Positions 8,824 through 14,115 of a stretch of DNA of 64,000 nucleotides are shown one piece after another. The stretch comes from Formivibrio citricus. GTDB taxonomy: Bacteria; Pseudomonadota; Gammaproteobacteria; Burkholderiales; Chitinibacteraceae. Location: assembly GCF_900115065.1 (NCBI RefSeq), contig NZ_FOVE01000001.1, forward strand, positions 1 to 64,000, written 5' to 3'. The stretch's first letter is position 1. Every line of letters begins with the position of its first letter. The notes beneath the pieces are model-generated. The model made no database searches. It had not been told where the DNA came from and saw nothing but the letters and a program-made list of their open reading frames with translations. The position numbers and the translations under genes are program-made.

Positions 8824-9495
8824 ATGAATGCAAACAACACTATTCCCGTGATCGCCATCGATGGGCCGTCCGCTTCCGGCAAGGGTACGGTCGCACAACG
8901 TGTGGCTCAGCAGCTTGGTTTCCATTACCTCGATTCCGGTGCGCTCTACCGTCTGACCGCGCTGGCGGCGCAAAAACAGGGCGTGGACTGGAGCGACGAA
9001 TCGTCAGTCACACGGCTGGCCGCAGCGCTGGATGTGGTATTTGAAGGCGAAACCATCCTGCTGGCCGGCGAGGACGTCAGCCAATCCATTCGTACCGAAG
9101 AAATGGGCTACGGCGCTTCGAAGGTCGCGGCATTGCCCGCCGTGCGCGATGCCCTGCTGCAACGGCAGCGCGATTTTGCGCGTGCACCGGGGCTGGTTGC
9201 TGACGGGCGCGACATGGGCGCGGTGGTGTTCCCGTCGGCCCCGCTCAAGATCTTCCTGACCGCAACCGCCGCTGTGCGCGCCGAACGCCGCTACAAGCAA
9301 CTGCTTGGGCGCGGCGAAGCCGCCGACTTGGCTGCGATCACCGCCGATCTCGAAGCGCGCGACGAGCGCGATCGCGCGCGCGCCGTGGCCCCGCTGATGC
9401 AGTTGCCCGATGCGCTGCTGCTGGAAACCTCGAACCTCAACATTGAACAGGCCGTGGCGCAGGTACTGGCCTGGTGGCGCGAGCGGGCCGGATGA
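8824..9495 (+). CDS. cmk: Cytidylate kinase
   Basis: Cmk phosphorylates CMP and dCMP with ATP, recycling nucleotides from RNA turnover and lipid synthesis. The P-loop GPSASGKGT is at residues 14-22, followed by the substrate motif LDSGALYRL and the lid/adenine region DGRDMGAVVFP and ERRYKQL. ATG 8824 gives the usual family N-terminus (223 residues); a GTG at 8806 would add six residues inside the repeat. Its stop overlaps the next gene, a Zur-like regulator, through ATGA. In most relatives cmk is followed directly by rpsA; here 4.8 kb of zinc-related and repeat DNA intervenes. Confidence 0.95.
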   Translation: MNANNTIPVIAIDGPSASGKGTVAQRVAQQLGFHYLDSGALYRLTALAAQKQGVDWSDESSVTRLAAALDVVFEGETILLAGEDVSQSIRTEEMGYGASKVAALPAVRDALLQRQRDFARAPGLVADGRDMGAVVFPSAPLKIFLTATAAVRAERRYKQLLGRGEAADLAAITADLEARDERDRARAVAPLMQLPDALLLETSNLNIEQAVAQVLAWWRERAG

Positions 9496-9899
9496 CCTCC
9501 GACGACCGCGCCCGTGCCCTGATCGAAGCACGGCAGGCCCGCCCCACGGCGGCGCGCCTGCAGGTGCTGCGCGCGCTGCTCGATGCCGGGCGCCCGCTTT
9601 CGCATCAGGAAGTGCAGCAATCGCTGGAGCTGGACCGCGTCACGCTCTACCGCGTACTCGACTGGCTGGCCGATACCGGCATCGCCCACCGCATCAACGC
9701 CGCTGACCGCATCACCCGCTTTTCCGTCTCCAGCGCGCCGCATTGCCATGCGCATTTCCAGTGCGAGCAGTGCGGGCGCATCTTCTGCCTGCCCGAAGGC
9801 GCTCCGATCCTGCCCGGCCCGTTGCCGGAAGGGTTCGTGTTGCGCGAGATCGAAATGACGGTGAAGGGGGTGTGTGCGGATTGCGCGCACCAAGGTTAA
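9492..9899 (+). CDS. zur: Fur-family metalloregulator, probable zinc uptake regulator
   Basis: This Fur superfamily repressor has 135 residues. The N-terminal winged helix includes LSHQEVQQSLELDRVTLYRVLDWL (about residues 37-60), with the TLYR recognition helix. The C-terminal dimerisation domain has HCHAHFQCEQCG and a second CxxC at VCADCAH, the four-Cys structural zinc site of Zur/Fur proteins. It is shorter than E. coli Zur. The zinc specificity is inferred from the nearby znuCBA operon and a perfect operator-like palindrome at 14094-14112. The ATG overlaps the cmk stop (ATGA), so translation is coupled to a housekeeping gene. A Fur or PerR role is less likely. Confidence 0.85.
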   Translation: MTSDDRARALIEARQARPTAARLQVLRALLDAGRPLSHQEVQQSLELDRVTLYRVLDWLADTGIAHRINAADRITRFSVSSAPHCHAHFQCEQCGRIFCLPEGAPILPGPLPEGFVLREIEMTVKGVCADCAHQG

Positions 9900-10250: not shown

Positions 10251-10514
10251 TTAACGTGCCGGCGGAGCCCCGTTGGGCGGTGGGCCGGACGGTCGTGTGA
10301 ATCCCTTGCCTTGCATGCAGGTATCCATGGCGGAGCGGTCCGGGCGGCCGCTGCTGTCTTTCTTGGCACTGCTGGCGCAAGCCGAAAGCGCGGCTTCCAG
10401 ACTGCTGTTGCTGCCGGATGCCGGGGCAGAAGCATTGGGCGCAGCCATGGCCGCGGAGGCAAGGCAGGAAGCAGCCAGCAAGCTGATCCGAAGTAAGGTG
10501 TGGCGGGTAAACAT
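10251..10514 (-). CDS. Small exported protein of unknown function
   Basis: This 87-residue protein has a clear Sec signal peptide: a basic start, a hydrophobic core ending SAAMAA, and a probable cleavage after residue 24. The mature part is rich in Ser, Ala and Pro, with two Cys residues (in LSACASSAKK and DTCMQGKGF) about 22 residues apart, suggesting one disulfide. A GAGG ribosome binding site lies 8 bases upstream of the ATG. It lies between repeats, near the zinc locus, without an operon partner. The CMQGKGF ending recalls small periplasmic proteins seen in related bacteria, but no function can be assigned. Confidence 0.65.
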   Translation of the reverse strand: MFTRHTLLRISLLAASCLASAAMAAPNASAPASGSNSSLEAALSACASSAKKDSSGRPDRSAMDTCMQGKGFTRPSGPPPNGAPPAR

Positions 10515-12117: not shown

Positions 12118-12987
12118 TCAATTTTTGCGGTGACGACGCGCGCGCCAGCGGCCATGCCAGCCGTGTGGCGCGAACAAGAGGGAAAGCAGGTAGCACAGGC
12201 CAGCGAAGAGCACGATGGCGGGGCCGGAGGGCAGGCCGAGATGGTAGGAAAGCATCAGCCCGCTCAGTGCCGACAGCAGTCCGCAGCCCCAGGCTGCGAG
12301 GATCATCCCGGGCAGCGTGCCGGCCCAGAGGCGGCTGGTGGCTGCGGGCAGCATCATCAGGCCGACGGCCATCAGCGTGCCCATGGCCTGGAAGCCGGCG
12401 ACGAGGTTGAGCACGGTCAGCGCGACGAATCCCAGGTGGTAGCGCGAACCGCGCTTGCCGCAGCTTTGCAGGTAAAACGGGTCGGCGCATTCGAGTACCA
12501 GCCCGCGGTAGTTGAAGGCGAGCCAGAGCAGCGTGAGGCTGGCGATACCGGAGACCATCAGCATCGAGAGGTCGTCCACGGCCAGCACCGAACCGAACAG
12601 GAGGTGGATGAGATCGACGCTGTTGCCCCATTGCGAAACCAGCAAAACACCCAATGCCAGTGCGACCAGATAGAACCCTGCGAAGTTGGCATCCTCGCTG
12701 AGATCGGTGAAACGGCTTGCGAGCCCTGCCAGCAGCGCGACCAGCAGCCCCGCTGCGATGCCGCCGCCGGCGAGCCAGGGCAGGGCAAAGCCGCCGAAGA
12801 TGAAGCCGACGGCGGCGCCGGGCAGGACGGCATGGGAGAGCGCATCGCCCATCAGGCTCATGCGGCGCATGATCAGCAGCACGCCGATGGGTGCGCAGCC
12901 GGCCGACAGTGCAATACAGGCGGCAAGCGCGCGGCGCATGAAGGCGAAATCGGAAAAGGGTGAAATCAGGAATTCGTAAAGGGTCAT
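12118..12987 (-). CDS. znuB: Zinc ABC transporter permease
   Basis: This ABC-3 family metal permease of 289 residues has eight or more hydrophobic helices. The GDALSHAVLPGAAVGFIFGG segment after the second helix is the family's cytoplasmic coupling region, and GTLMAVGLMMLPAATSRL is the conserved late helix. The end is strongly basic and His-rich (HGWHGRWRARRHRKN), possibly a cytosolic metal-handling tail. ATG 12987 overlaps the znuC stop by ATGA, so the two subunits are translationally coupled. Confidence 0.93.
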   Translation of the reverse strand: MTLYEFLISPFSDFAFMRRALAACIALSAGCAPIGVLLIMRRMSLMGDALSHAVLPGAAVGFIFGGFALPWLAGGGIAAGLLVALLAGLASRFTDLSEDANFAGFYLVALALGVLLVSQWGNSVDLIHLLFGSVLAVDDLSMLMVSGIASLTLLWLAFNYRGLVLECADPFYLQSCGKRGSRYHLGFVALTVLNLVAGFQAMGTLMAVGLMMLPAATSRLWAGTLPGMILAAWGCGLLSALSGLMLSYHLGLPSGPAIVLFAGLCYLLSLLFAPHGWHGRWRARRHRKN

Positions 12988-13697
12988 GGTACGGCGCACC
13001 ATTCGGCTTCGTTGTGCCAGTGTTCGATGAGTTTTTGCGCGCGTTCCAGGTTGTCTGCTTGCAGGGCTTCATCGCTCGGCCCCCAAGCGACGACTTCACG
13101 CGCCAGCAGCAACGCTTGCGGAAAGTGTGCACGCGCTACGCCCAGATCGTGAACGACTGTCACGAGCGTCTTGCCGGCGGCATGCCATTCGGCCAGTACT
13201 TCGATCAGGATGCCGGCGGTGCGGCTGTCCACGCTGTTGAAGGGTTCGTCGAGCAGCATGATCGGCGTGTCCTGAACAATCAGGCGGGCAAAGCGCACGC
13301 GCTGCATCTGGCCGCCGGACAGGGTGGCGACTGAGCGGGCGGCGAAATCGGCCAGCCCCATGCGCTCCAGCGCAGCCAGGGCGCGTGCGCTGGCGGTGGC
13401 ATCGAGTTGCCCCGCGTTGCCGGCGCGCAGCCAGTGGCCGGACAGCGCCAGCTCGGCGACGGTCAGCGGAAAATGGCGGTCGATCTCGGCGAGTTGCGGA
13501 AGATAGCCGATTGCTTCGTTGGCGACGATCTTGCCGGTGGCCGGCAGCAGGCCGGCAATAGCCTTGAGCAGCGTGCTTTTCCCCGCGCCGTTGGGGCCGA
13601 CGATGGCGGTATGGCTGCCGCGCTCGAACCGGCCGCTGATGTGGTGGATCGCCGGGCGCTGTTGGTAGCAGACTGTGAGGTTGGAAAGTTGGATCAT
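12984..13697 (-). CDS. znuC: Zinc ABC transporter ATPase
   Basis: This ABC ATPase of 237 residues energises zinc import. Walker A GPNGAGKST is near residue 37, the Q-loop region GYLPQ near 68, the signature LSGGQMQR near 140 and Walker B IMLLDEPF near 161, with the switch His in TVVHDLG. ATG 13697 starts the normal family N-terminus; the frame upstream runs through a repeat and is not coding. It leads znuCBA on the minus strand, but about 260 bases of repeat separate it from the small membrane peptide and promoter at 13954-14115. Confidence 0.93.
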   Translation of the reverse strand: MIQLSNLTVCYQQRPAIHHISGRFERGSHTAIVGPNGAGKSTLLKAIAGLLPATGKIVANEAIGYLPQLAEIDRHFPLTVAELALSGHWLRAGNAGQLDATASARALAALERMGLADFAARSVATLSGGQMQRVRFARLIVQDTPIMLLDEPFNSVDSRTAGILIEVLAEWHAAGKTLVTVVHDLGVARAHFPQALLLAREVVAWGPSDEALQADNLERAQKLIEHWHNEAEWCAVP

Positions 13698-13770: not shown

Positions 13771-13880
13771 ACCAGCTCCCTCTCCCACGAAGGGAGAGGG
13801 TTGGGGTGAGGGTGAATGACGTTGAGCGCAAGAATCGATCCCCACCCCGCCCTCCCCCTGAAAAGGGGAGGAGGCATGTC
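13771..13880. repeat. GGGAGAGGG hairpin repeat in the znu leader
   Basis: A perfect hairpin CCCTCTCCC-ACGAA-GGGAGAGGG (13778-13800) is followed by TTGGGGTGAGGGTG and a second hairpin of CCTCCCC/GGGGAGG near 13851-13872. This resembles common dispersed repeats of Proteobacteria. It lies in the presumed transcript between the 39-codon gene and znuC and could affect distal expression. Confidence 0.7.
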
Positions 13881-13953: not shown

Positions 13954-14073
13954 TCATGCCAGCGCCCATAGGGTCAGCAACCAGATGGCAGCGAGCAGCG
14001 GCAGCATCAGCAATACGCGTTGCCAGGCAGAGAAGGAAAAGAGGCGGGCGGCCAGACTGGAGCTTGGGTTCAT
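13954..14073 (-). CDS. 39-residue single-pass membrane peptide at the head of znuCBA
   Basis: This is a small open frame of 39 codons plus TGA. It begins [17 protein letters not shown], has a basic QR before the membrane, then an uninterrupted hydrophobic helix ([20 protein letters not shown]) to the C-terminus. The layout is that of a one-helix inner-membrane peptide with an N-terminal cytosolic or amphipathic part and four Trp residues. It starts 20 bases downstream of a perfect operator-like palindrome and 36 bases from a TATAAT box on the same strand. It is in the same orientation as znuCBA. No strong ribosome binding site is seen. No known family is recognised; a modulator of the zinc transporter is inferred only from position. 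Confidence 0.55.
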
Positions 14074-14093
14074 GTTCTTGAGGTTAATTCTCA

Positions 14094-14115
14094 AATGCAA
14101 CCAAGTTGCATTATA
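14094..14115 (-). promoter_or_regulatory. Candidate Zur operator over the znu promoter
   Basis: AATGCAAC-CAA-GTTGCATT (14094-14112) is a perfect 8-bp inverted repeat with a 3-base spacer. On the minus strand a consensus TATAAT box (14110-14115) overlaps its upstream edge, so a bound dimer would block RNA polymerase. Size and symmetry fit Fur/Zur-type operators; assignment to the nearby Zur-like regulator is inference. Confidence 0.65.

Follow-up and report, generated by a model that had tools for sequence, protein, structure and literature searches.

The znuCBA operon of Formivibrio citricus is headed by a gene for a 39-residue, single-pass membrane peptide, which is in all likelihood an accessory subunit of the ZnuB2C2 zinc importer. 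We propose that this gene is the first of a Zur-repressed transcription unit and that its product, with the N-terminus inside the cell, docks on the permease ZnuB.

Organization of the znuCBA locus

The window (the whole 64,000-nt stretch of DNA that was analyzed) contains the following features:

9474–9899, plus strand: Fur-family regulator gene, probable zur, one of two FUR-family genes in the genome
11208–12089, minus strand: znuA, periplasmic zinc-binding protein with a His-rich loop
12121–12984, minus strand: znuB, permease; the transmembrane (TM) helix at residues 138–157 bears the predicted docking face
12987–13697, minus strand: znuC, ATPase of a Zni/Tro-type zinc ABC importer (192.9 bits with the AztA model, cut-off 220)
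13772–13871, no strand assigned: dispersed repeat (16 genomic matches) situated between the peptide ORF and znuC
13954–14073, minus strand: conserved single-pass peptide ORF of 39 codons (ATG at 14073, stop codon at 13954–13956)
14094–14112, no strand assigned: putative Zur operator AATGCAACCAAGTTGCATT, a perfect palindrome; the motif is also found before zinc-starvation genes in relatives
14110–14115, minus strand: TATAAT, −10-like hexamer of a putative promoter, overlapping the operator

The original prediction of a clean 39-codon frame encoding a one-helix peptide in the direction of znuCBA agrees with the ORF coordinates and with the TM call. An alternative in-frame TTG at 14100 would yield a 48-residue product but is a less likely start, as relatives begin at the ATG equivalent to 14073. 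The residues conserved in the family are Arg19, Trp31, Trp36 and Ala37, so that the window peptide carries an R-x11-W-x4-W-A core in a single C-terminal TM helix, with an N-in charge bias. The ORF precedes znuC in the same orientation, and 256 nt separate its stop from the znuC start; this unusual gap is explained by the dispersed repeat of around 100 nt. The window peptide had no match among Pfam, NCBIfam or PHROG models, and the peptide profile matched no solved structure in the PDB. Only marginal model matches were obtained with a few relatives, and they can be put down to His-rich tails or to TM composition.

The importer belongs to a clade that comprises ZniCBA, TroCBA and neisserial ZnuCBA; of 398 Pseudomonadota genomes sampled, 98 encode it. 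Zinc specificity of the clade is taken from the published studies of ZniCBA (PMC10797113, PMC12183173). The ZnuC, ZnuB and ZnuA proteins of the window fall below the NCBIfam cut-offs of the E. coli-type models (85.4, 78.2 and 71 bits, with cut-offs of 306, 284 and 268, respectively). Their best matches are the AztA, AztB and AztC models, which also stay below cut-off (192.9, 231.6 and 292.9 bits against 220, 280 and 350). Identity with AztABC was considered and discarded because these curated cut-offs are missed and because no peptide accompanies genuine AztA loci.

The peptide accompanies znuC across Pseudomonadota

When 43 genomes of the F. citricus family were searched with the window peptide (tblastn), matches at E ≤ 5e-4 were found in 29. 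In the family loci inspected, the homologue lies directly 5' of znuC on the same strand and follows a similar palindrome wherever one is detectable. Twenty-three family genomes were tested for znuC: the 11 positive ones all carry the peptide upstream, and the remaining 12 have neither a znuC orthologue nor a significant peptide match. When 349 genomes from the order were searched with a profile, the picture was the same: the peptide was upstream of znuC in all of the 28 best loci, which were those checked for context. ZnuB of the clade is present in 71 of these 349 genomes. Twenty ZnuB-positive genomes lacking an adjacent profile match were inspected; nearly all harbor, before znuC, an ORF of like pattern that is divergent and has a single TM helix, the exceptions being one doubtful locus with differing candidates (L097) and another whose sequence ends before znuC (L101).

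Wider samples (class, phylum and 80 named loci) showed that the peptide is also found in alpha- and gammaproteobacteria. Carriers include Neisseria, Pandoraea, Chromobacterium, Agrobacterium, Mesorhizobium and Pseudomonas graminis. Distant ZnuB relatives (around 30% identity) lack the peptide. Absence calls should be read with two artifacts in mind: in L174 and L183 the sequence ends before znuC, and in L042, L068, L196, L209 and L282 the peptide is present but was scored absent by an over-strict rule. Altogether, the peptide is found in nearly every genome that bears the clade, directly upstream of znuC. Conservation of the frame beside znu, on which the original prediction hinged, is thus seen in the family, in the order and in the phylum.

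The position of the gene relative to znuC is equally regular. Of 238 peptide loci, 90 have a stop codon overlapping znuC and 112 have it no more than 30 nt away. A Zur-type box between the peptide and znuC was found in none of the 238, while 115 loci showed a box ahead of the peptide in a search with simple patterns. One locus (L009, genome G033) shows an apparent partial tandem duplication involving the 3' end of the peptide gene and the 5' end of znuC.

On the ZnuB tree, this distribution fits ancestral presence followed by several losses, which would have occurred in a Pseudomonas-like group, in a Rhizobiaceae group and in a 1-Mb genome; this is a rapidly built tree, on which part of the “absent” labels correspond to truncated loci or to rule misses. 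Since AztABC proper, the Pseudomonas-like group and the 1-Mb genome work without the peptide, it is not essential to the transporter fold. In three Pseudomonas-like loci (L248–L250), ZnuCB of the clade is encoded without the peptide, and znuC is found directly behind another gene.

Selection on the peptide sequence

Of 225 unique loci of the clade, 192 have a strict motif (R-x11-W-x4-[WF]-small, with a hydrophobic core) in the region before znuC. The same motif was absent from all controls: antisense strands, shuffled sequences, 12 distant ZnuB loci and 255 regions inside znuC. Tryptophan occupies position +12 after the conserved arginine in 92% of unique cores and position +17 in 89%, figures that must be read knowing that the arginine was fixed by the search rule and that candidate ranking favored tryptophan. 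Peptide length is commonly 30–80 residues, compared with 39 in the window.

In the 28-codon core, dN/dS was 0.22 across 60 disjoint close pairs, while the value for znuC was 0.10; close pairs were used because saturated pairs gave an uninformative 0.56. Judged by this ratio, the peptide core is under purifying selection. The short length of the ORF and the lack of a Pfam or NCBIfam model might raise the suspicion that it is a chance reading frame and no gene. The conservation matches, the dN/dS value and the motif controls rule out this explanation, whose probability we consider negligible, and the existence and conservation of the peptide are close to certain.

Covariation with ZnuB and membrane topology

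Direct coupling analysis used 212 sequence pairs, with an effective number of 125. The top peptide–ZnuB pair, position +15 after the conserved arginine and ZnuB residue 145 (B145), reached a Z of 11.2–11.7. This value exceeds every long-range pair within ZnuB (maximum 5.8) and any ZnuB–ZnuC pair listed. The maximum was 5.1 in 24 shuffled sets, 12 of which were shuffled within ZnuB clusters only, and the pair ranked first or second in 10 of 10 half-samples. Residue sizes at the two sites compensate each other (Val/Ala, Ile/Gly, Thr/Ser-Thr). On a tree from which the column in question was excluded, Ile at +15 and Gly at B145 showed 13 changes each. Both were gained together in six of eight independent pairs and in opposite fashion in none (p = 0.031), a test of only eight pairs whose classes were picked after viewing the residue table; no other amino-acid grouping gave enough independent pairs.

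Two further pairs, +8/B149 and −3/B157, lie on one helix face with +15/B145, at a depth that matches an N-in peptide; individually they fall within the null range and are unstable in half-samples. In a model of the ZnuB monomer (mean pLDDT 82), B145 is located on the TM helix 138–157, and the predicted docking face is formed by ZnuB residues 145, 149, 153 and 157, numbered from T1 of the reference ZnuB. The +15/B145 covariation points to direct helix packing. ZnuC is not favored as the main contact, as peptide–ZnuC couplings are spread and weaker. Concerning topology, an excess of Lys plus Arg on the N-terminal side was found in 200 of 204 peptides and the opposite bias in none, which argues for an N-in orientation.

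A second, variable feature of the peptide is its tail. At least five histidines precede the conserved arginine in 38 of 204 unique peptides, some of them as MSHxHxHDH repeats; the tailed peptides are scattered over the ZnuB tree, which requires 12 changes of state. The window peptide and most members lack such a tail. Given the N-in topology, the tail would be cytosolic, where it might serve to hand zinc on or to provide feedback.

Predicted Zur control

The perfect palindrome and the overlapping, same-strand TATAAT box described in the original prediction are confirmed. The operator halves AATGCAAC-CAA-GTTGCATT occupy 14094–14112, the only perfect match to the pattern in the 3.07-Mb genome, and the hexamer reads from 14115 to 14110; a search for its −35 element yielded no good candidate. 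In relatives, the same palindrome precedes genes for COG0523 GTPases, ZnuA-like proteins, TonB receptors and a ZIP permease (identities read from sequence). Since the operator is shared with these zinc-starvation genes, the regulon context in relatives indicates that the window palindrome, initially labeled “Zur-like”, is a Zur-type box. As for the regulator, a Fur/Zur-type gene had been noticed near znuCBA, and a Fur-family gene is indeed present at 9474–9899. It is likely to encode Zur because the other FUR-family copy of the genome scores as a classical Fur (154 bits, compared with 43.5 for the window copy).

Additional observations on Zur-related loci can be summarized as follows:
(i). In three loci of one genus (L061, L019 and L052, genus g3), a Fur-family gene homologous to that of the window immediately precedes the peptide gene and znuC, with stop and start codons touching or overlapping, and the order zur–peptide–znuCB forms one unit.
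(ii). Paired Zur boxes around 45 nt apart are found in a single promoter region before a TonB receptor gene (L025, L034) and before a ZnuA-like gene (L032, L036).
(iii). Between zur and znuA, the window encodes a small predicted secreted protein (10254–10514) with two cysteines and without a Pfam match.

Proposed role and alternative explanations

The original prediction considered the peptide a possible partner or regulator of ZnuBC; ZnuB is favored as the partner, independently, by co-occurrence, by the spacing and order of the genes and by covarying residues. The case for a place in the ZnuB complex is strong, albeit indirect. Sequence analysis establishes that the ORF is coding and conserved, where it stands in the operon, that it co-occurs with the transporter and covaries with ZnuB and, through charge bias, how it is oriented in the membrane; the physical complex with ZnuB and its effect on transport are what we infer. 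The probable scenario is that derepression of the Zur-controlled promoter would produce the peptide as the first gene product of znuCBA and, owing to its usual translational adjacency to znuC, just ahead of its partners. With the N-terminus in the cytoplasm, the inner-membrane helix would pack on the ZnuB helix 138–157, placing +15 against residue 145, and the docked helix would stabilize the permease or modulate it. Where the N-terminal tail is rich in histidine, as in many lineages, it would bind zinc at the cytoplasmic exit, either as an acceptor or as a feedback sensor.

The latter possibility admits a stronger version: the peptide might be primarily a zinc chaperone whose tail takes zinc from the channel and passes it on in the cytoplasm, the helix being only an anchor. 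The His-rich N-termini, scattered on the tree and predicted to face the cytoplasm, speak in its favor. However, most members, that of the window included, are almost devoid of histidine, and it is the helix that is conserved. We regard this version as unlikely, bearing in mind that it overlaps with a subunit role in His-tailed lineages. Another explanation is that the ORF is a regulatory leader, with a dispensable product, whose translation controls znuC by coupling or attenuation. Its location at the operon head and the frequent 4-nt ATGA overlap with znuC are what one would expect of a leader. Such a device, however, would hardly account for the strong protein-level constraint (dN/dS 0.22), for Arg and Trp positions that remain invariant over phylum-wide divergence or for covariation with ZnuB. 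Furthermore, the window peptide has been kept despite its distance from znuC, and the repeated changes in the His tail would be superfluous for coupling. We therefore give the leader explanation a low probability.

Many bacterial single-TM small proteins act on diverse partners, and a Zur-regulated peptide might likewise be merely co-transcribed with znuCBA and act elsewhere, for instance as a stress peptide or on another membrane protein. This is, if anything, slightly less probable than a leader, since throughout Pseudomonadota the peptide strictly accompanies and adjoins a single transporter clade, and since it covaries specifically with ZnuB. An accessory subunit of ZnuB2C2 remains the explanation that we favor.

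Relationship with known systems

KdpF (KdpFABC), CydX (cytochrome bd) and AcrZ (AcrAB-TolC) are peptides of 30–50 residues with one TM helix, tied to a membrane complex or encoded beside it. The window peptide resembles these small single-TM accessory subunits; yet Pfam revealed no sequence relationship, the transporter class is different, and they have no His-tail variant. CbtB, CbiN and NikN are small membrane partners of metal transporters, some of them metal-binding. In this case the difference lies in the lack of Pfam or NCBIfam matches and in the partner, a permease of the cluster A-I ABC type. Other pumps are known to have small membrane subunits, but we found none for a metal-binding cluster A-I ABC importer. 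Nor did we find a prior account of the peptide in the open-access literature, or a model or structure in Pfam, NCBIfam or the PDB; hence, it has apparently been overlooked so far.

The window importer shares its clade and Zur control with ZniCBA of K. pneumoniae and R. leguminosarum, TroCBA of Agrobacterium and ZnuCBA/MntABC of N. gonorrhoeae. In the parts of the ZniCBA and neisserial ZnuCBA papers drawn on here, three genes are described and the peptide goes unmentioned (PMC10797113, PMC12183173, PMC9280163), whereas the loci of Agrobacterium and Neisseria spp. that we analyzed do carry it. A 37-residue peptide overlapping zniC was also found in an enterobacterial locus flanked by mltB; mltB is reported to flank K. 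pneumoniae zniCBA (PMC10797113), and the locus is of that type. For R. leguminosarum zniCBA, published reporter assays demonstrate control by Zur and zinc, with the box 153 bp before zniC and with promoter activity that requires the region from −258 to −88 (PMC12183173). Judging by two relatives (L267, L269), this 153-bp gap leaves room for such an ORF. The “ZniCBA” of C. metallidurans was discarded as an instance of the same system: it is an unrelated RND efflux system.

A speculative extension is that importers of the clade, so far treated as having three components, might really have four, with an ancestral Zur-controlled single-pass subunit that docks on ZnuB; His-tailed forms could sense zinc, gating import or feeding back on it. 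We consider this broader proposal possible rather than probable. The question is of interest since the clade, found in around one quarter of the sampled Pseudomonadota, serves the zinc supply of plant symbionts as well as of human pathogens of the Neisseria and Klebsiella types. In vitro or cross-species expression of ZnuABC or ZniCBA alone may leave out a subunit of the native importer, and upstream-region mutants may be mistaken for promoter mutants. The His-tailed variants make zinc hand-off or feedback directly testable.

Peptide presence may also separate Zni/Tro from Azt importers. AztABC(D) of Paracoccus denitrificans represents the neighboring clade (PMC5387054), and there the box lies 30–44 nt upstream of aztA (PMC5387054). 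In four Rhizobiaceae loci (L276, L277, L280 and L283), no peptide is found and a Zur box, TAATGTAATAACAT, directly precedes the ATPase gene; the two of these loci that were tested passed the AztA cut-off.
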